DNA of 37,995 nt from Candidatus Altimarinota bacterium (GTDB lineage Bacteria > Patescibacteriota > Gracilibacteria > JANQMV01), in NCBI GenBank assembly GCA_028279865.1, contig JANQMV010000055.1, positions 1-37,995 on the forward strand. The letters are read 5' to 3'. The position numbers were made by a program, and so were the translations under genes. This document shows, piece by piece, positions 5,946 through 37,302 of this stretch. Each line of letters opens with the position of its first letter. Position 1 is the first letter of the stretch. The notes beneath the pieces are model-generated. The model saw nothing but the letters and a program-made list of their open reading frames with translations, did no database searches and was not told the origin of the DNA.

Positions 5946-7304
5946 ATGAATATTACAATTTTGGGATGAGGAAATATCGGACGTACTATCGCCGCACAGT
6001 TTATTTGCGAAGAACACAATGTTTTTCTTGTTGAAAATAAACGTGAAGAAGTCTGATATATTGAAGAAAATCTGGACCTTTCCGTTATTCACGGAAATGC
6101 AAATAACACAACCATTCTGGAAAATGCCAATATTGAAGAAGCAGACTTGCTTTTGGCAGTAACCGATGATGATAATACAAACATTCTCGCTTGTGAACTT
6201 GCAAATTTTTATAACAAAAAGTGTAAAAAAATTGTACGAATTTCGGATGTCAGTTATTTAAACAAAGAACATATTTTATCCAAAGTTGACTTCAAAATTG
6301 ATCACGTAATTAATAATGAAGAAATTCTTGCAAAAAACTTAAAAAAACTAATTGCTTTCCCGGGGGCAACAGATTTATCAACTTTCCTTGATGAAAAAAT
6401 CATTCTGGGTGGTTTTAAAATTAAACCAAGCTCTCCCTTTTTCGATCAAAAAATCAAAGACCTGCCCTTGCCGGAAGAAGCCCGCGTTATTGCCTACGCC
6501 GACAATGGACATTTTCATCTAGCCGAACCTCATCTCACCCTGCAAGAATACTCAATAATCTATCTTGCTTTCCCTAGTGAAATTTCAAACAAAATTCAAA
6601 AACTGATTAACCCTAATTACAAAAAAATTAGAAGTTTAGTCATTTACGAAGACTGCAACAAAGATATGCAAAAAACTTATTATTTAAGTGAAAAATTGAG
6701 CAAAGATTTAAAAATCAATGACATTCGCATTGTAGTCAGGTCAAACCAAAAAGCCAAAGAGCTCTCCAAAATTTCACATAATCAAATTCTGACAGGAAAA
6801 ATTGCAAAACCGTCCTTCTGGTACAGGCAAGAGCTCAATGAAGCGGATGCGTTTTTAGCCTTATCCGAAAATAATGAAAAAAACATCCTCGCAGGCTTGG
6901 TATGAAACCAGCTGTGAATTTCAACCATCTTAACACAAGCGGAACTTCCTGAATACTCAGCACTAACCTCCTCAACTCCTCTAACCTCCATACTTAGCCC
7001 CTCAATTTTGGCAGTAAATGAAATTTTACAACAAACCCATCATGAAGAAATAAAAAAAATGACTATCTTGAATTACCTGGATTTAGAAGCCATCGAATAT
7101 GAAATCGGAGAAAAAAGTAAAGCCAAAGGAAAAACGATCAAAGAAATAATTGGTAAAAACAATTTCGTAATTTCACATATTTTGCGAAACGGAAAAATAC
7201 AGAAACCAAAAGAAAAAACTACTCTCAAAAAAGGAGACAAGGTTTTGCTTATCACAAGCATAGATAAGTTAAGTTACCTTTCTGAGATGTTTAAAGTAGG
7301 GTAA
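5946..7304 (+). CDS. trkA: Trk potassium uptake regulator TrkA, read with UGA as Gly
   Basis: TrkA is the cytosolic NAD(H)/nucleotide-binding gating ring of the Trk K+ transporter. Read through four in-frame TGA codons (5967, 6054, 6903, 6915) the frame gives 452 residues, close to E. coli TrkA (458). Domain order: RCK-N Rossmann domain (ITILG-G-GNIGRT at the start; first UGA is the middle Gly of GxGxxG), TrkA-C (about 145-220), second RCK-N (about 225-365) and TrkA-C ending KKGDKVLLITSID. The third and fourth UGA fall in LV-G-NQL-G-IST, where relatives have the conserved Gly before the strand. The second Rossmann domain lacks a GxGxxG motif (VIYEDCNKD), so it may not bind nucleotide. Under the standard code this would be three fragments. 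Confidence 0.92.
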
Positions 7305-7520: not shown

Positions 7521-9005
7521 GTGCACCTCAAAGCGGGTTGAAAAAGTATCGCGCCCATTCAAATTATCATTGGAATCGCAATGCTTTTGACAAGCCTTGT
7601 TTCAATTTTTTACAAAGAGAATCCTTGGCCACTTTGGTTTGGTTCTGCTATAAGTTTAGCTTTTGGCTTTTGACTGTATTGGCTTTCACGAAAAGCAAAC
7701 TTAAAACAAGAAATCAGGACAAGAGAAGGCTTTGCCATTACAACCTTTAGCTGGATTTTAGCTGCGCTTTTTTGAGCCATTCCTTTTTACTTGTCAAACT
7801 TTCCGGATTTAAATCTGTCAGCCAGTTTTACCGACAGCTTCTTTGAATCAATGTCCGGCTTCACCACAACAGGAGCAAGTATCTTGAGCAACATTGAACA
7901 GTTCCCAAAAGGAATTTTGTTCTGGAGATCACTCATGCATTGGTTTGGCGGAATGGGAATTATTGTCCTTGCGATTGCGATTTTACCAAATATAGCAATC
8001 GGAGGTATGCAGATTTTTAAAACAGAAGCTCCTTGACCTTTTAAAAAAGATAAACTGATGCCGCGCATCAAAGACGTTGCAAAAGTACTTTGGAAAGTTT
8101 ATTTAATTTTTACAGTTTTGGAAATTATCGCCTTAATGGCGGTCGGACTTGATTGGTATGATGCTATTACACATACATTTGGAACAATTGCAACAGGAGG
8201 GTTTTCGACTTATAACGATGGTATTAGCGGTCTGAACAATCATGCTGCAGAAATTACAATTACCATTTTTATGATCTTGGCCGGAATTAATTTTTCACTT
8301 TATTTTTCATTCTTCAAAGGCAAAATCACCGCACTCTTCGATCGAGAACTAATGGTCTACTTAAGCCTTATTTTAATTGTTTTTGGTTTAATTGTCTGGG
8401 ATTTAAATAATCACCAATACTACAAATCAATCTGAGAAACCGTTCGTTTAGCTTTCTTTCAGGTTCCTGCGATTTTAACAACAACAGGTTATACTACCGC
8501 AAATTTCGATGACTGGCCAAATTTTTCGAAATGACTTCTTTTTATTTTAATGTTTATTGGAGGATCAGCAGGCTCAACAGCCGGTGGCTTCAAAATCATC
8601 AGGCATATGGTTATTTTAAAATATATCATCATTGAACTAAAACGCATCATCAACCCTAGTCTGGTTCAAACTGTCAAAATTGCAAAAAGACCTATTGAGC
8701 AATCAATCGTAAACTCGATTTTAGCCTTTGCAGGAATTTATTTAGGCTTATTTGCATTAGGCGGACTTGCCTTAACATTTTATGGAATTGATACAGAAAC
8801 CGCATTTTCAGCCTCAATAGCCAGTCTTGGTAACATTGGTCCCGGTTTTAATTTGATTAGCCCTATCAGTAATTATGGTTTTATGCCAACAGAAGCAAAA
8901 TGGATACTATCATTCTTGATGCTAGCCGGACGTCTGGAAATTTTTACGTTTATTATTTTGTTCGTACCGGGAATTTGGAAAAACACGAAAAAATGGAGTT
9001 TTTAA
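7521..9005 (+). CDS. trkH: Trk potassium uptake protein TrkH, read with UGA as Gly
   Basis: TrkH is the membrane channel subunit that works with TrkA. One frame from a GTG start to TAA gives 494 residues (E. coli 483) if six in-frame TGA codons are read (7539, 7671, 7773, 8034, 8433, 8532). The GTG is favoured because VHLKAG matches the MHFRAI start of known TrkH and an in-frame TAA sits 9 bases before it. The four pore loops are visible: [39 protein letters not shown] and SLGNIGPGF, plus [14 protein letters not shown]. The UGA at 7773 falls in LF-G-AIPF and that at 8034 in EAP-G-PFKKDKL, both Gly in relatives. A possible -10 TATAAT is at 7500. A repeat separates it from trkA. Confidence 0.93.
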
Positions 9006-13284: not shown

Positions 13285-13361
13285 TGGTGTCCCAGGCGCG
13301 ATTTGAACGCACGACCTCAGCCTTCGCAGGGCTGCGCTCTATCCAGCTGAGCTACTGGGAC
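13285..13361 (-). tRNA. tRNA-Arg (anticodon GCG)
   Basis: A 77-base cloverleaf: acceptor GTCCCAG/CTGGGAC, D-arm GCTC/GAGC, anticodon stem CAGCC/GGCTG with loop CTGCGAA (anticodon GCG), T-arm GTGCG/CGCGC, discriminator A and encoded CCA. Most bacteria use an A34 (inosine) tRNA for CGU/CGC; here position 34 is G, so CGC and CGU can be read without TadA editing. These are the main Arg codons in the two leader peptides of this window. Confidence 0.93.
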
Positions 13362-13434: not shown

Positions 13435-14940
13435 TTACCCTCTCTGTACAATTTTATTCAGTGCTTGAAGGTATGCTTTTGCACTTGCCACAACAATATC
13501 GGTATGCACGCCTTTACCTGTAAAAGTTCGCCCCTGCTTATTCTTCACTTTCACAATAACTTCTGCGACAGCATCAATTCCTTCGGTAACAGCATTCACA
13601 TTAAATTCCATCAACTCACCATGATCACCAATAATCTGATCGATCGCCTTATATATAGCATCAACAGGACCTGTTCCTTCGCCCTTAGCTTTTTGAATAT
13701 CTCCCTCCACATTAACCTCTACAAAAGCATTTGGCTGGTGGATTGTTCCTGTATGCACATCCAGATCTTTAAGTTGGAATTTCTGCTGATTGGTTGCCAT
13801 TTCATCATTCACAATCGCTTCCAAGTCTTCATCATAAACTTCCTTTTTCTTATCACACAGTTCTTTAAAGCGAGTAAAGACCAGTAGCAATTCCTCATCT
13901 GATAAATCAAAACCGATTTGCTGCAAACGATCGTTCAATGCAGCACGCCCGGAGTGTTTACCAAGTACCAAACGATTTGTATCCAGACCAATGTCCTCAG
14001 CACACATAATTTCAAAGGTTTCTCTCTTTTTTAAAATTGCATCCTGATGAATACCAGACTCATGCGCAAATGCGTTTTTACCAACAATCGCTTTGTTCGC
14101 TTGTACGTGTAGTCCCGTGATACTAGAAACCAAGCGTGAACTTTTATAAATTTCTTTTTTGTTAATATGCGTTTTTTCAGAAAAAAACTCCGAACGCACA
14201 TCAAGTGCCATCACAACCTCTTCGAGAGACGCATTTCCTCCTCTTTCCCCAAGTCCGTTAATCGCACACTCAATCTGCCTTGCCCCGTTTTGTACCGCTG
14301 CCAGAGAATTCGCAGTCGCCAGTCCCAAATCATTATGACAATGCACACTTAAGATCACGTCCTCTTTCAAAGCCGGAACCCTTTCAATAATGTCTGCAAT
14401 AAACTTGCCAAACTCATTCGGGATTGCGTAACCGACACTGTCTGGAATATTAATCGTCGTTGCACCTTCTTCAATTGCGACTTTAATCACTTCACACAAA
14501 TAATCCAATTCCGTGCGGCTTGCGTCCATCGCACTAAACTCCACATCTTGACATAAGCTTCCTGCCAATTTAACAGCTTTTCGTGCCATTTCCAAAACCT
14601 CTTCCTGAGTCTTTTTCATCTGATATTTAAGATGAATTTCAGAAGTAGAAATAAAAGTATGAATTCTCGGACAACTTGCTTCCTGGATCGCTTCCCAGCA
14701 AACTTCAATATCTTTTGGCACAGCGCGTGCAAGTCCGCAAATTGTAGATTTTGTAACCTTTTTGGCTATTTGATTAACTGCATTAAAATCATCTTTTGAA
14801 GTAATCGGAAAACCCGCCTCAATAATATCCACTCCCAATTTTTCCAACTGTAAAGCCACTTTAATTTTTTCTTCGGTATTCATGCTCGCTCCCGGACTCT
14901 GCTCTCCGTCACGTAAAGTTGTATCAAATATTTTAATCAT
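13435..14940 (-). CDS. leuA: 2-isopropylmalate synthase
   Basis: LeuA condenses acetyl-CoA and 2-oxoisovalerate, the first step of leucine synthesis. The 501-residue protein begins IKIFDTTLRDGEQSPGASM, the HMGL-like active-site signature, and has the HCHNDLGLATANSLAA metal motif (about 200-215), the second signature VNGLGERGGNASLEE as INGLGERGGNASLE and the HESGIHQDAILK loop. The C-terminal 130 residues form the LeuA dimer/regulatory domain, so Leu feedback is likely. It ends in TAA and has no internal TGA. No leuB, leuC or leuD is in the window, and no Leu-codon leader is visible upstream. Citramalate synthase is a less likely alternative. Confidence 0.93.
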   Translation of the reverse strand: MIKIFDTTLRDGEQSPGASMNTEEKIKVALQLEKLGVDIIEAGFPITSKDDFNAVNQIAKKVTKSTICGLARAVPKDIEVCWEAIQEASCPRIHTFISTSEIHLKYQMKKTQEEVLEMARKAVKLAGSLCQDVEFSAMDASRTELDYLCEVIKVAIEEGATTINIPDSVGYAIPNEFGKFIADIIERVPALKEDVILSVHCHNDLGLATANSLAAVQNGARQIECAINGLGERGGNASLEEVVMALDVRSEFFSEKTHINKKEIYKSSRLVSSITGLHVQANKAIVGKNAFAHESGIHQDAILKKRETFEIMCAEDIGLDTNRLVLGKHSGRAALNDRLQQIGFDLSDEELLLVFTRFKELCDKKKEVYDEDLEAIVNDEMATNQQKFQLKDLDVHTGTIHQPNAFVEVNVEGDIQKAKGEGTGPVDAIYKAIDQIIGDHGELMEFNVNAVTEGIDAVAEVIVKVKNKQGRTFTGKGVHTDIVVASAKAYLQALNKIVQRG

Positions 14941-30759: not shown

Positions 30760-32517
30760 ATGACAAAAGAGAAAAAAAGCATATTCAAACACTATTTACC
30801 TGAAATCAAAAAATACAAAGGCTGGCTAATCGCCATGATTATCGGAATGCTTGTCGTCATTGCGGTGGATTTAAGCATCCCTTTTTTAATCCGCGATTTA
30901 GTCAATCTCTTCTCCACACCCGCAAACGAAAACTACGAAACCGCCCAAAGCATCGTTTGGAAAATTGCCGGATTGTTCTTTGTCATCTGGATCGCCTGGT
31001 GCGTAAATGAATACTCCATCACACGCTTTGAACTCAAAGGGATGCGTGATATCAACGAACGCTGCTTCAAAATGATGCAAAAGCATTCCTTTCGCTTTTT
31101 CACAGACAACTTCACCGGATCATTAGTCAAAAAAGTTTCCCGTTTCGTCTACGCCTTTGAAACTTTAACCGACATTTTTTACTTCAACTTCCTCTATCAG
31201 ACGATTTACCTCACCAGCGTTTTCATCATCTTTTTACGCGAAAAAACTTTCTTGGGCATCATCTTTCTGATCTGGAGCATTCTTTTCCTCGTGGGGAATT
31301 ATTACTTTGCCATCTGGAAAATGAAATATGACAAAAAAGCAGCTGAAGCTGATTCTAAGCTCAGTGCTACTTTGGCGGATTCTTTTAGCAATTATTCAAC
31401 CGTCAAATTTTTCGCCCAAGAAAAGCAAGAAGCAAAGCTCTTTCAAAAAGTCTCTAAAAACTGGTTTGCAAAAAACATCTTTAGCTGGGACTTGGCGAAT
31501 CATATCAACCTAGTGCAAGCTTTTCTTATAATCGGACTGGAAATCATAGTTTACTACTTCGCGTTACAATGGTGGAAAGAAGGTAATTTTCAAGTGGGAG
31601 ATTTCGTCTTTATCCAAACATATTTACTCGGGGCTTTCCATCGTCTCTGGGATTTTGGCAGAAATATCCGGGATTTTTTCAGGAAGCTAGCAGATGCACA
31701 GGAAATGGCGAATATTTTTGAAAAGGAAATTGAAGTCAAAGACGCTCCAAATGCGAAAATTTTGCGTGTAAGACAAGGAGAGATTGAATTTAAGGATGTA
31801 AACTTTGCGTATGAAGATGATTCTGTAAAAGCGTTTAAAAAGTTTAACCTAAAAATTAGTGCCGGTGAAAAAATAGCTATCGTCGGACATTCGGGAGGCG
31901 GAAAGTCAACTTTTGTAAAATTACTTTTCAAGCTTTATAACATCCAATCAGGAGAGATTTTAATTGACGGACAAAATGTCGCGGAAGTAACTCAAGAGTC
32001 TTTACGCAAAAATATTTCTCTCGTACCTCAGGATCCGAATCTTTTTCACAGAAGCATTGCCGAAAACATTGCTTACGGAAAAACGCACGCCAAGCAAAAA
32101 GAAATTGTCAAAGCAGCCAAACTCGCTCAAGCGGATAAATTTATTAACAAACTGCCAAATGGTTACAAGACTTTGGTCGGTGAACGTGGTGTCAAACTCT
32201 CCGGAGGAGAAAAACAAAGAATTGCGATTGCCCGTGTGATTTTAGAAAATGCTAAAATTCTGGTTTTGGATGAAGCGACCAGTTCACTTGATTCGGTTGC
32301 GGAAAAAGAAATTCAAACCGCAATCGAAAACGTCATGGATGACAAAACCGTAATCGTCATCGCTCACCGTCTCTCTACAATTAAGAAAGTCGATCGCGTG
32401 ATTGTCCTTGATGAAGGAAAAGTCCTGGAAACAGGCAGCCACCACCAGCTCATCCGCAAAAAAGGAAAGTACGCCGAGCTGTGGTCTCATCAGGTTGGAG
32501 GATTCTTGGCGGAGTAA
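30760..32517 (+). CDS. ABC exporter, fused membrane and ATPase domains
   Basis: A 585-residue half-transporter that would dimerise. The first 310 residues hold six membrane helices (first at about 21-45); the ATPase half has Walker A GHSGGGKST (376-384), Q-loop SLVPQDPN, signature LSGGEKQR, Walker B ILVLDEATSSLD and switch IAHRLST. Such type IV exporters move lipids, peptides or drugs outwards; the substrate is unknown. Its start lies 37 bases after an A/T-rich promoter-like region. A strong terminator follows. Confidence 0.94.
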   Translation: MTKEKKSIFKHYLPEIKKYKGWLIAMIIGMLVVIAVDLSIPFLIRDLVNLFSTPANENYETAQSIVWKIAGLFFVIWIAWCVNEYSITRFELKGMRDINERCFKMMQKHSFRFFTDNFTGSLVKKVSRFVYAFETLTDIFYFNFLYQTIYLTSVFIIFLREKTFLGIIFLIWSILFLVGNYYFAIWKMKYDKKAAEADSKLSATLADSFSNYSTVKFFAQEKQEAKLFQKVSKNWFAKNIFSWDLANHINLVQAFLIIGLEIIVYYFALQWWKEGNFQVGDFVFIQTYLLGAFHRLWDFGRNIRDFFRKLADAQEMANIFEKEIEVKDAPNAKILRVRQGEIEFKDVNFAYEDDSVKAFKKFNLKISAGEKIAIVGHSGGGKSTFVKLLFKLYNIQSGEILIDGQNVAEVTQESLRKNISLVPQDPNLFHRSIAENIAYGKTHAKQKEIVKAAKLAQADKFINKLPNGYKTLVGERGVKLSGGEKQRIAIARVILENAKILVLDEATSSLDSVAEKEIQTAIENVMDDKTVIVIAHRLSTIKKVDRVIVLDEGKVLETGSHHQLIRKKGKYAELWSHQVGGFLAE

Positions 32518-32525
32518 ACCCCCTT

Positions 32526-32566
32526 AGAGCTGACAGGTTTTAAAAACCTGTCAGCTCTTTTTTTTT
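32526..32566 (+). terminator. Intrinsic terminator after the ABC exporter
   Basis: A long stem (arms AGAGCTGACAGGTTTT and AAACCTGTCAGCTCT, 32526-32558) is followed by nine T residues. It starts 9 bases after the exporter stop. Confidence 0.92.
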
Positions 32567-32800: not shown

Positions 32801-32828
32801 TTGACAAATCAAAATTCCACGCTAAACT
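32801..32828 (+). promoter_or_regulatory. Promoter for the argG leader
   Basis: TTGACA (32801-32806), a 16-base spacer and TAAACT (32823-32828). The mRNA would begin about 15 bases before the leader ATG at 32851. Confidence 0.65.
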
Positions 32829-32850
32829 TAGCTTACAATTTTCAACTGAC

Positions 32851-32934
32851 ATGCAAATTAATTTAACTCAAATCAGCGTAGCTAACCGTCGCACTCGCCG
32901 TAGTCATACTTCGGTCGAGTTTGTTGTGAATTAA
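32851..32934 (+). CDS. Arg-rich leader peptide of argG
   Basis: A 27-codon ORF, too short for ordinary gene calling. Its start is MQINLTQISVANRRTRRSH; four of five consecutive codons (32887-32901) are Arg (CGT CGC ACT CGC CGT). It begins about 15 bases after the predicted transcript start and ends 28 bases before a terminator hairpin. The Arg run lies in segment 1 of the attenuator, so a ribosome starved of charged tRNA-Arg would stall there. The call rests on layout, not on conservation. Confidence 0.8.
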   Translation: MQINLTQISVANRRTRRSHTSVEFVVN

Positions 32935-32989
32935 TTTAAACCCAAATATCAAACAACTTCCTACGACCGAACAAGGTCGTATTTTTTTT
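32893..32989 (+). promoter_or_regulatory. Arginine attenuator before argG
   Basis: Three exclusive pairings are visible. 1:2, ACTCGCCG (32893-32900) with CGGTCGAGT (32912-32920), one bulged base. 2:3, TTCGGTCG (32910-32917) with CGACCGAA (32964-32971), 8 bp. 3:4, TACGACC (32962-32968) with GGTCGTA (32975-32981), then eight T. Stalling at the Arg codons blocks 1:2 and frees 2 to pair with 3, so no terminator forms. Confidence 0.8.
32962..32989 (+). terminator. Intrinsic terminator of the argG attenuator
   Basis: Stem TACGACC/GGTCGTA with loop GAACAA, followed by a run of eight T. It is about 285 bases before argG. Confidence 0.85.
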
Positions 32990-32993
32990 GTTT

Positions 32994-33076
32994 AGAGATG
33001 CCATCTTTATCTAAAAAATAACAACAATCTCAAAATTTTACTTATTCTTTCAAAAAAACAAAAAAGATGGCATCTC
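32994..33076. repeat. 15-bp inverted repeat with 53-base loop
   Basis: AGAGATGCCATCTTT (32994-33008) and its exact reverse complement (33062-33076) flank an A/T-rich loop, just after the attenuator and before argG. Role unknown. Confidence 0.7.
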
Positions 33077-33274
33077 TGCCCTACGCAAGCTCCCCTCAGG
33101 ATGACAAAGGAACTTACTAACTCTTAACTAATTTACAAATGTTCTACCCTCAAAAAATCAACCGCCAGACCCTCTACCGATATTCAAACAAACTAACAGC
33201 TAATAGCTAAAATCTTCTCAGCTATTCAAAACCTAGCCAAAACAATACTTTATTATCTATTAACCCAAAAAAAC

Positions 33275-34498
33275 ATGGAAAACAAGAAAATCGTACTCGC
33301 CTACTCAGGAGGACTGGACACATCTATCATCACAACCTGGCTCGTTCAAAACGGCTTTGAAGTGATTTGTCTACTGGTAGACCTCGGACAAAAAGTTGAA
33401 GATGTAGAAGAACTTAAACAAAAAGCCCTAAACTGTGGTGCCAGCAAATCAGTTGTCCTGGATTTAAAAGAAGAATTCGTCAAAGAATATGTCTTTGAAG
33501 TAATGAAATGGAATGCTAAATACGAAGGAGAATATTTATTGGGAACATCCGTTGCCAGACCACTTATCGCCAAAGCTCAAGTTCAAATCGCCGAGCAAGA
33601 AGGCGCTCAATGGCTTTCACACGGAGCAACCGGAAAAGGGAATGATCAAGTTAGATTTGAAATGGGATACTATGCCCTCAAACCGGATGTAAAAGTTTAT
33701 GCACCATGGAAAGATCCTAAATTTTTGGAAAAATTTCCGGGCAGAAAAGAAATGATTGATTTCGCCGAAGAAAATAATATTCCAATTAAAGCAACCAACG
33801 AACAACCTTGGTCAAGTGATGAAAATTTACTCCACATTTCTTTTGAAGCAGGAATGCTCGAAGATCCGTGGACAAAACCACTGGATGAAATGTATGAATT
33901 TTCGAAAACTCCACAAAATGCCCCGGATCAAACCACAGAACTTTTCCTCGACTTCGAAGATGGTCTACCGGTTAGCCTAAATGGAGAAAAACTTTCTCCA
34001 GCAGAAATGCTGCACAAGTTAAACGAAATCGGAGGAGAAAACGGAATCGGGCAACTCGATATGGTGGAAAACAGATTTGTGGGAATGAAATCCAGAGGAG
34101 TCTACGAAACTCCGGGAGGAACAATTTTGTGGAAAGCACACAAAGCAATGGAAAGTATCACCATGGACAGAGATTTGATGCATTTAAGAGACTCTCTCAT
34201 GCCTGAATTTGCAAAAATGGTTTATAACGGTTTTTGGTTTTGCGCTAAAATGAAAGCCATGCAAAAACTCATTGCACAGTCACAAAAGAAAGTAACCGGA
34301 ACTGTCAGATTGGATTTGTACAAAGGAAATGTCAGAATTACCGGAAGAAAATCGGATTACTCTCTCTACGATGATAAAATCGCCTCAATGGACGACGACG
34401 GAGGTGCTTACAACCAAGAAGACGCCATCGGTTTCATCAAACTAAATGCCCTGCCACAAAGAGTAGAAGCAGCGAAAAGAGGAGGATTGTATCTTTAA
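33275..34498 (+). CDS. argG: Argininosuccinate synthase
   Basis: ArgG joins citrulline and aspartate to argininosuccinate using ATP. The 407-residue protein starts MENKKIVLAYSGGLDTSII, with the N-type ATP pyrophosphatase P-loop SGGLDTS, and shows the substrate segment GATGKGNDQVRFE (about 114-126), the aspartate/citrulline residues near LLGTSVARPLIAK and the C-terminal tail that makes tetramer contacts. Normal length for the family (about 400). It heads the arg cluster and lies behind a translation-coupled attenuator. It has no internal TGA and ends TAA. A 326-base gap with two repeats follows before argF. Confidence 0.97.
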   Translation: MENKKIVLAYSGGLDTSIITTWLVQNGFEVICLLVDLGQKVEDVEELKQKALNCGASKSVVLDLKEEFVKEYVFEVMKWNAKYEGEYLLGTSVARPLIAKAQVQIAEQEGAQWLSHGATGKGNDQVRFEMGYYALKPDVKVYAPWKDPKFLEKFPGRKEMIDFAEENNIPIKATNEQPWSSDENLLHISFEAGMLEDPWTKPLDEMYEFSKTPQNAPDQTTELFLDFEDGLPVSLNGEKLSPAEMLHKLNEIGGENGIGQLDMVENRFVGMKSRGVYETPGGTILWKAHKAMESITMDRDLMHLRDSLMPEFAKMVYNGFWFCAKMKAMQKLIAQSQKKVTGTVRLDLYKGNVRITGRKSDYSLYDDKIASMDDDGGAYNQEDAIGFIKLNALPQRVEAAKRGGLYL

Positions 34499-34520: not shown

Positions 34521-34606
34521 TGTCATCCTGAGGAGTGAAAAGACGAAGGATCTCCGCCACTGACTGCCAGAGATTCTTCACTCCGTAAACTACGTTCAGA
34601 ATGACA
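34521..34606. repeat. MITE-like intergenic repeat, copy 7 (short)
   Basis: Ends TGTCATCCTGAGGAG and TTCAGAATGACA; 86 bases. The interior (GAAAAGACGAAGGATCTC and GAGATTCTTCACTCC) is near-palindromic. It resembles a different subtype of the same termini. Confidence 0.6.
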
Positions 34607-34824: not shown

Positions 34825-35772
34825 ATGAAAAAAAACTTAACCAAAATCAGTGATTTGGATAAACAGGAAATATCCAAAATCATCAAACAAGCTTTTTTGT
34901 ACAAAAAAGAAAAAGATCAGGGCAAAGAACACGCTGATATTCTCAAGAAAAAAACGATTGCAATGATTTTTGAAAAAGCTTCGCTCAGAACAAAAGTTGC
35001 CATGGAAACAGCCGCCTATCAATTAGGCGGACATGCTGTTTATCTTACCAGTTCACAGATTCTTGCCAGTGGAAATAATCAGCAAGGCAGAGAATCAATT
35101 CCTGATATCGCACACAATTTGGAAAGATTTTGCGAATTGATTACCGCCAGAGTTTATCATCATGAAACAATTAAAATCCTCTCCGAATCAAGCAACAAAC
35201 CTGTCATCAATCTACTCTGCGATCAACATCACCCCACACAAACACTCGCTGATCTGATGGTCATTTATTGGCACAAGCAAAGTTTTGAGAACTTAAAAGT
35301 CTGCTTCATCGGTGATGCCAATAATGTTTCACAGGACTTAATGCAAGGTTGTAGTATTATGGGAATTGATTTTTCCATCGCAACGCCGGAAAGCTACCCT
35401 GTGCCTAACAATGTCATCACAGAAGCTCTCAACCACGCTTCTAAATCCGGCGCAAAAGTTGAAGTCACTACTTCTCCCGAAATAGCAATTAAAAACGCTG
35501 ACTTTGTCTACACAGATACGTTTATTTCCATGGGAGAAGAAGATCAGTATCAAGCAAAAATCAAAGAATTTGCTGACTATCAAATAAATTCAGAAATTCT
35601 CAAACATGCTAAAAATGATGTAAAATTTATGCACTGCTTACCCGCACACCGAGGAGAAGAAGTCACAGATGAAGTTATGGACAGCAAACATTCAATCATC
35701 TTCGACCAAGCAGAATGCAGACTACACATTATGAAAAGTTTGTTGCATTATTACTTTGGATGAAAACATTAA
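34825..35772 (+). CDS. argF: Ornithine carbamoyltransferase
   Basis: OTCase makes citrulline from ornithine and carbamoyl phosphate. Signatures: EKASLRTKVAMETA (carbamoyl-phosphate loop, SxRT as SLRT), HHPTQTLADLMVI, the SMG loop in TDTFISMGEEDQ, and the catalytic HCLPAHRGEEV. Under the standard code it stops at TGA (35761-35763) after 312 residues. With UGA as Gly it gains Gly-Lys-His and ends at TAA 35770-35772. It follows argG by about 326 bases and precedes argH by about 180, all on one strand; the gaps hold repeats and no leader ORF like that of argG. Confidence 0.95.
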
Positions 35773-35949: not shown

Positions 35950-37149
35950 ATGCAAAAAATCTGGCAAAAATCAGCACAAAGTAATACTTCCGACATTGCA
36001 AAAATTGTCGAAAAATTTACCGTAGGAGATGATTATATCCTTGATCAAAAAGTCCTCCCCTATGACTTAAAAGCCTCCAAAGCACATGCACAAATGCTGC
36101 ATCAAATTAAAATCATTTCCAAGGAAGAACTGGAAGCTTTGGAAAAAGGTTTGGCTGAAATTAAAACTTTATGGAAAAAAGGAGAATTCGAAATTTCCAG
36201 AACAGATGAAGATTGTCACACGGCGATTGAAAAGTATTTAACGGAAAAATTCGGAACAGTCGGAGAAAAAATCCATACAGGCAGAAGCAGAAATGATCAA
36301 ATTCTGGTGGCGATGCGTTTGTTACAAAAGCATTCTCTGCAAAGCTTTACTGAGCAGATTGAAGGTTTGCTGCAAAGCTTTACAGAACAAACTGAAAAAT
36401 TTGGCAAGATTAAAATGCCCGGTTACACACATATGCAAAGAGCCATGCCGTCTTCTGTCGGAATGTGGCTGGGTAGTTTTGAAGCCAGCTTCAAAGATAA
36501 CTTCCAACTAATGCAAAGCACTCAAGCAGTTATTGATCAAAATCCTTTGGGCAGTGCCGCAGGTTTTGGAGAAAATACTTTTGGCTTGGATCGAGAATTT
36601 ACTTCAAAGAAGCTAGGCTTTGCTAAAACACAAACTAATCCGATGTATTGTGCCTATTCCAGAGGAAAATTTGAAAAAATTATTCTGGATAATTTAGGAA
36701 ATTTCATGCTGGATTTTGGAAAATTTGCCAGCGATCTTCTACTTTTCACAACCAAAGAATTCGGATTCTTCGCTTTACCGGATGAATTTTTAACGGGTTC
36801 TTCCATCATGCCGCAAAAAAAGAATTACGACGTACTGGAATTAATGCGAGGCAAAACAAGCGTCTTCTTTGGTTATCAATCGCAAATCCAAGAAATAATT
36901 AAGAACCTTCCCTCAGGTTATAATCGAGATTTCCAACTAATCAAAGCACCATTTTTAAAAGCTCTGCAAACTTTTGGAAACTGCTTGGAAATGACGAATC
37001 TGGTTGTAAATAACTTACAGCCAAATCAAGCAAAACTTGAAGAAGCTTGCAGTCAGGAACTTTATGCCACGGATGAGGCGTACAAACTGGTTAAAAACGG
37101 AATAAGCTTCCGTGAAGCTTACAAAAAAATTGGTGCTAAATACATTTAA
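35950..37149 (+). CDS. argH: Argininosuccinate lyase, short C-terminus
   Basis: ArgH splits argininosuccinate to arginine and fumarate. Visible are the N-terminal ILDQKVLPYDLKASKAHAQML, EDCHTAIEKYLTEKFG, HTGRSRNDQI, the helix PGYTHMQRAMPSSVGMWLG and the flexible catalytic loop GSSIMPQKKN. It has 399 residues, some 50-60 fewer than E. coli ArgH (457): it stops after SFREAYKKIGAKYI, just where the last helical part of the family begins. Active-site segments are all present, so it may be active; a shortened lineage form is likelier than truncation because the stop is TAA with no repeat at the end. Confidence 0.94.
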   Translation: MQKIWQKSAQSNTSDIAKIVEKFTVGDDYILDQKVLPYDLKASKAHAQMLHQIKIISKEELEALEKGLAEIKTLWKKGEFEISRTDEDCHTAIEKYLTEKFGTVGEKIHTGRSRNDQILVAMRLLQKHSLQSFTEQIEGLLQSFTEQTEKFGKIKMPGYTHMQRAMPSSVGMWLGSFEASFKDNFQLMQSTQAVIDQNPLGSAAGFGENTFGLDREFTSKKLGFAKTQTNPMYCAYSRGKFEKIILDNLGNFMLDFGKFASDLLLFTTKEFGFFALPDEFLTGSSIMPQKKNYDVLELMRGKTSVFFGYQSQIQEIIKNLPSGYNRDFQLIKAPFLKALQTFGNCLEMTNLVVNNLQPNQAKLEEACSQELYATDEAYKLVKNGISFREAYKKIGAKYI

Positions 37150-37253: not shown

Positions 37254-37302
37254 TTTTTAAACTAAAAAAATTAAGCCTTACGTGATAGTGCGTAGGTTTT
37301 TT
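37227..37302 (+). promoter_or_regulatory. Arginine attenuator before the argB-like gene
   Basis: Terminator arm CCTTACG (37276-37282) pairs with CGTAGG (37291-37296). The leader end ACGTAA (37241-37246) can pair with TTACGT (37278-37283), part of that 5' arm, as an anti-terminator. GCGTAC..GTAaaCGC (about 37232-37250) forms a protector hairpin over the last Arg codons. It is weaker than the argG version. Confidence 0.7.
37276..37302 (+). terminator. Intrinsic terminator of the argB attenuator
   Basis: CCTTACG and CGTAGG form a 6-bp stem with one bulged T and an 8-base loop, followed by six T. It lies about 30 bases before the gene start. Confidence 0.78.

Follow-up and report, generated by a model that had tools for sequence, protein, structure and literature searches.

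Arginine biosynthesis is normally under the control of ArgR or of T-boxes, and ribosome-mediated attenuation is the textbook mechanism for Trp, His, Leu, Thr, Ile/Val and Phe. Attenuators of this trp/his type, known from trp, his, leu, thr, ilv and phe in E. coli/Salmonella, have a leader ORF in which codons for the end product are clustered, RNA arms that pair as 1:2, 2:3 or 3:4, an intrinsic terminator, and anti-termination that depends on a stalled ribosome. The DNA in front of argG in a Candidatus Altimarinota bacterium resembles them in each of these respects, with arginine as the end product, and raises the question of whether this is how the organism reads its arginine supply.

Results

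Layout of the argG leader region

The DNA analysed, referred to here as the window, is the forward strand of contig JANQMV010000055.1 from position 1 to 37,995 (37,995 nucleotides; assembly GCA_028279865.1; GTDB lineage Bacteria; Patescibacteriota; Gracilibacteria; JANQMV01). The leader region is flanked by an ABC transporter gene (30760–32517) on one side and argG on the other, and the relevant features are as follows.

32526–32558, + strand, terminator ending the upstream ABC transporter gene and marking the unit boundary (15-bp stem and T run)
32801–32828, + strand, sigma-70-type promoter TTGACA-N16-TAAACT (10/12 consensus matches; function inferred)
32851–32934, + strand, leader peptide ORF of 27 codons, MQINLTQISVANRRTRRSHTSVEFVVN (similar Arg leaders in relatives)
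32887–32901, + strand, regulatory codons CGT CGC ACT CGC CGT (Arg Arg Thr Arg Arg) (predicted terminator probability ~0 only with a ribosome here)
32893–32900, + strand, arm 1 of protector stem 1:2, ACTCGCCG (minimum-energy fold)
32910–32920, + strand, arm 2, TTCGGTCGAGT, shared between arm 1 and arm 3
32964–32971, + strand, arm 3 of anti-terminator 2:3, CGACCGAA, overlapping the 5' arm of the terminator
32962–32989, + strand, intrinsic terminator 3:4, TACGACC-N6-GGTCGTA (32962–32981) followed by T8 (32982–32989) (fold and terminator scan)
33275–34498, + strand, argG, argininosuccinate synthase, controlled gene (Pfam Arginosuc_synth, Arginosuc_syn_C)
34825–35763, + strand, argF, ornithine carbamoyltransferase, controlled gene (Pfam OTCace, OTCace_N; table 11 ORF; stop TGA)
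35950–37149, + strand, argH, argininosuccinate lyase, controlled gene (Pfam Lyase_1, ASL_C2)

The promoter, the 27-codon ORF and its four Arg codons in five are present base for base where the initial annotation had placed them, and the pairings that it had drawn were likewise confirmed at their positions. Stem 1:2 joins arm 1 to CGG-T-CGAGT of arm 2 (32912–32920) in 8 bp with one bulge, anti-terminator 2:3 joins TTCGGTCG of arm 2 (32910–32917) to arm 3 in 8 bp exactly, and terminator 3:4 is followed by eight T. The leader ATG has no clear Shine–Dalgarno sequence. With the RRTRR leader before argGFH and an intrinsic terminator between the leader ORF and argG, the locus meets the trp/his-type description given above.

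No terminator-like site was found on the + strand from argG to the end of argH, the next being at 37277–37296, so the attenuator is positioned to govern argG, argF and argH together. The gap of ~290 nt between terminator and argG holds a perfect 15-bp inverted repeat (32994–33008 and 33063–33077), the arms of which are 54 nt apart with no T run after them. The sequence TGTCATCCTGAGG occurs in the gaps before and after argG (33094–33106, − strand, and 34521–34533, + strand) and probably represents an intergenic repeat family. No comparable leader was seen at leuA in the same window (13435–14940). ArgJ was not found in genome G000; the cell may therefore import ornithine or citrulline and turn it into arginine through argF-argG-argH alone.

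Predicted stall-dependent folding of the leader RNA

With each codon placed in the A site in turn, the RNA was folded from the leading edge of the ribosome through the terminator. The terminator pair probability is ~0.9 or more at almost every ribosome position; it is 0.95 without a ribosome and is also high with a ribosome at the stop codon. Only with the ribosome at N12-R13-R14-T15 does it fall to ~0, and at R16 it is 0.2. The minimum-energy structure includes the 2:3 anti-terminator when the ribosome is stalled at the Arg cluster and the terminator when it is at the stop. The dip remained at the Arg cluster for assumed footprints of 9–20 nt and temperatures of 15–45 °C. The locus thus shows, albeit in silico only, what is expected of a trp/his-type attenuator: pairings 1:2, 2:3 and 3:4 that exclude one another and among which the position of the ribosome decides.

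As a null, the peptide was kept while its synonymous codons were redrawn and the spacer was shuffled, giving 100 versions. The switch statistic D is 0.90 at the argG locus and ~0 in the null, in which none of the 100 versions reaches 0.90. Across 29 leaders of the class the mean D is 0.297 compared with − 0.034 ± 0.029 in the null, and 11 leaders have D ≥ 0.3 where 0.4 would be expected. According to the model, then, stall-dependent switching is retained in very divergent leaders, far beyond the synonymous-codon null. In the simple folding model, several other loci, L035, L061 and L064 among them, lack a dip at their Arg codons. The family of the argGFH genome is represented by this single genome, and the genomes compared include no close relative in which base-pair covariation could be followed at the locus. 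Stems were aligned in the genus g26 group (L013, L014, L036 and L041, with L047), which holds too few distinct sequences for a covariation count.

From these elements the following mechanism can be put together, in which the transcription start, the translation of the leader and the regulation in vivo are inferred from sequence. Transcription would start near 32835, and a ribosome would translate the 27-codon leader while RNA polymerase extends the RNA. Were Arg-tRNA scarce, the ribosome would stall on CGU CGC ACU CGC CGU and cover arm 1, leaving arm 2 free to pair with arm 3; the terminator would be blocked and argGFH transcribed. With arginine in good supply, the ribosome would reach the stop at 32932 and cover or pass arm 2, so that 3:4 could form and transcription would end near 32989. 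Without translation, 1:2 would form and transcription would be terminated as well. Although no expression data exist, we are confident that the argG-argF-argH operon is controlled by ribosome-mediated transcription attenuation at this region, with charged tRNA-Arg as the signal.

Arg leaders before arg genes in related genomes

Among the 353 genomes of the class, 72 carry argG. A short ORF containing RR lies just before a terminator in 37 of the 63 regions upstream of a first arg gene, the runner-up amino acid being Lys with 8; the Arg-rich short ORFs that the initial annotation had proposed to look for in related Gracilibacteria do therefore exist. By the stricter measure of at least three Arg in five codons the count is 28/63 (Lys equivalent 5). 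The 37 positive loci, a few of which may be spurious (L030, L057), span about 15 families by the labels used for these genomes. Typical leaders, each with a terminator after it, are MNFKVLFTNLRRRP, MNIWNLVSQLRRRRL, MFILNSRRRRFKRQKFRR, MHNLFSRRNRRRRKKPQKFR, MTNLFTTSLRRRPFSK and MIKLTSTTSVVRRSRLRQKLR. In argF-first operons the leader precedes argF (L015, L016, L048, L059 and L078), and tandem attenuators, with two Arg leader–terminator units, are found before argG in L060 and before argF in L016. In L055 and L058, arm 3 nearly duplicates arm 1 (CTCCACT), arm 4 nearly duplicates arm 2 (AGTGGAG), and the leader stop codon TAG lies inside the 1:2 hairpin.

Short ORFs are common and the window leader lacks a clear ribosome binding sequence, and one might suppose that an unrelated terminator happens to follow a meaningless ORF. 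At least three Arg in five codons before a terminator were found in 24 of 67 argG upstream regions, compared with 0.9 ± 0.8 in dinucleotide shuffles, and a leader with terminator precedes 21 of 43 arg genes as against 5 of 252 other genes from the same stretches of genome (up to 20 kb). These results, together with a 20-amino-acid control and the synonymous null, rule out a chance ORF with a stray terminator, which is refuted statistically at the level of the class and to which we attach next to no probability. The judgement in the initial annotation that chance was unlikely is borne out both by the shuffles and by the failure of every randomised version to match the observed D.

The window argG groups with a minority argG type (L002, L028 and L003–L007; 53–74% identity), most of which are without a leader: among these nearest homologues by protein identity, none was found at L028 or L003–L007, and at L002 (73%) an Arg leader is present but a strict intrinsic terminator is missing. 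L002 is one reason to consider that control might be coupled to translation without regulated termination, the terminator merely fixing a constant level, or Rho or RNA decay setting expression; the long stretch after the window terminator, with its strong inverted repeat (32994–33077), could also matter here. Against this, arms 2 and 3 overlap the terminator exactly, its predicted loss is specific to the position of the ribosome, and leader is followed by terminator in more than half of the regions examined (the 37 of 63). We consider such control without regulated termination extremely unlikely, and regulated attenuation remains the preferred reading.

In other classes of the phylum, argG upstream regions are mostly without such leaders. 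Genome G599, which belongs to one of these other classes, has leader MTTTHNVIRRRRSLAEG and a terminator in front of argG (L094), and on this sequence evidence a putative Arg attenuator occurs outside the class too. L086 and L090, also from other classes, have very short ORFs, MKYRWRWRNF and MTKRWRRKN, directly before argG with no terminator.

Two further leaders were seen within the class. In genome G014 an Arg leader, MEKHRITARQNRRQNWIFQKVR, the third in that genome, lies with a terminator before a gene for a LysE-type translocator (L137, 10363–10989, − strand); starvation-induced control of a member of this exporter family would be odd. In genome G035 a Thr-run leader, MNKFALIITTTTTTTIM (IITTTTTTTIM), with a terminator precedes an aspartokinase–homoserine dehydrogenase gene (L113, 1423–3225, − strand). 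The latter is a threonine attenuator in the same class and, having come from the same blind scan, a natural positive control.

Arg codon choice in leaders and genes

The leaders write arginine mainly as CGC/CGT (86 of 111 codons), in contrast to the matched argG genes (19 of 230). In the window, CGC/CGT account for 2 of 28 Arg codons in the arg genes and 113 of 276 in other genes (Fisher p = 1.5e-4). Over 26 leader-bearing loci the arg genes use the codon class of their leader less than other genes do (Mantel–Haenszel odds ratio 0.49); it is lower at 18 of the 26 (Wilcoxon p = 0.0013, with no correction for relatedness), the exceptions being L013, L036, L037, L039, L041, L046, L061 and L075. 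A tRNA that is expected to read the leader codons is encoded in the window, its role being inferred.

13285–13361, − strand, tRNA-Arg with anticodon GCG (ARAGORN)

Selective charging of isoacceptors predicts such a pattern for attenuator codons (PMC1183508), and we infer that the contrast between leader and argG is tied to it.

Codon choice also bears on what makes the ribosome stall. The basic leader peptide might itself arrest the ribosome, the trigger being free arginine, ornithine, a polyamine or a drug; in the folding, a stall at the same site gives the same switch of the same RNA arms. Basic peptides are known to slow ribosomes. There is also a precedent in Salmonella, where speF is preceded by orf34, a uORF that is linked to ornithine and has two Arg codons (PMC6386406). 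Unlike arrest peptides, which depend on fixed residues, the Arg leaders have only the Arg run in common across the class, while there is wide variation in flanking residues, in length and in where the run lies. Lys-rich leaders are far rarer than Arg leaders, which also speaks against arrest by a basic peptide as such. The preference for the single class CGY indicates tRNA charging rather than the peptide. Nascent-peptide arrest is thus very unlikely in our view, and we retain sensing of charged tRNA-Arg.

Other regulators and the genetic code

A search for ArgR, as had been suggested together with the attenuator, found none in the organism's own genome and none above cut-off in any of the 353 class genomes, while the same search was positive in 9 of 14 control genomes. 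ArgR control of argGFH was rejected on this ground. The T-box (RF00230) had no match in the window; the same tool detected T-boxes above the Rfam gathering score before argG in L087 and L102, from other classes of the phylum. An Rfam family, riboswitch or T-box at the argG leader was likewise rejected, since the only matches were meaningless and far below gathering scores.

The organism had also been labelled UGA-recoded, and this label is wrong or at least unsupported. An intact RF2 (prfB; 343 aa, SPF motif, 464 bits) is encoded alongside RF1, argF ends in UGA, and in-frame UGA is absent from most genes of the window. Loss of RF2, expected if UGA were read as Gly, was not observed in the genome, and because RF2 is kept intact the argGFH genome is, as far as sequence can tell, probably not recoded. 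Some relatives clearly are, with 14–27 UGA in argG. Of the long genes in the window that match Pfam, trkA (5946–7304, + strand; 4 in-frame UGA) and trkH (7521–9005, + strand; 6) alone contain several and look recoded, with UGA at Gly-like positions; no close relative of TrkH was found in the class, and the two genes may be genes from a lineage in which UGA is Gly, read-through genes or broken genes. The leader contains no UGA codon, so the label is irrelevant to the attenuator mechanism, and recoding as a part of the attenuator was set aside for this reason and because of the RF2 in the genome.

Discussion

The reading of the region as an arginine attenuator, already put forward in the initial annotation, is supported by the stall-dependent folding, by the class-wide occurrence of Arg leaders and by the absence of ArgR. 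The mechanism itself is classical ribosome-mediated attenuation. The Arg leaders differ from the trp/his type in sensing arginine and in controlling argGFH or argF-first operons in a class without ArgR; they share little beyond the Arg run, occur in tandem copies and match no Rfam family.

Three other systems invite comparison. In the fungal arginine attenuator peptide (arg-2/CPA1) a short uORF also makes an arginine gene respond to arginine, but this is nascent-peptide arrest in eukaryotes at excess arginine and involves no transcription terminator. The T-box leaders before argG in L087 and L102 likewise switch a terminator and, as we infer for these two, read the charging of tRNA-Arg; unlike the argG leader, T-boxes work without a leader ORF, by binding uncharged tRNA themselves, and none matches at the argGFH locus. 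In Salmonella speF, ribosomes on the consecutive Arg codons of the orf34 uORF report the arginine supply, but the target is ornithine decarboxylase and the means are Rho, folding of the RBS and RNase G decay, without an intrinsic terminator before arginine-synthesis genes (PMC6386406). A survey of actinobacteria reported no such attenuator for arginine, and T-boxes for arginine are cited there from elsewhere (PMC1262725). We found no published ribosome-mediated attenuator for arginine biosynthesis in the open-licence literature, to which our search was limited, and within that limit this use appears new.

It is tempting to extend the argument to the class as a whole. CPR bacteria without ArgR would read their arginine supply mainly through tRNA charging, by leader peptides before the first arg gene or transporter; the leaders would use the CGC/CGT isoacceptor class that is avoided in the arg genes, and starvation would then be felt by the sensor first, at a time when the enzymes can still be made. 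For this generalisation our judgement is evenly balanced.

The argG leader region offers a ready-made reporter design, and the Arg leaders form a natural setting in which to test the theory that attenuator leaders draw on other tRNA isoacceptors than biosynthetic genes do. If true, class-wide arginine attenuation in these uncultured CPR bacteria with reduced genomes would show how regulation is possible with few transcription factors.
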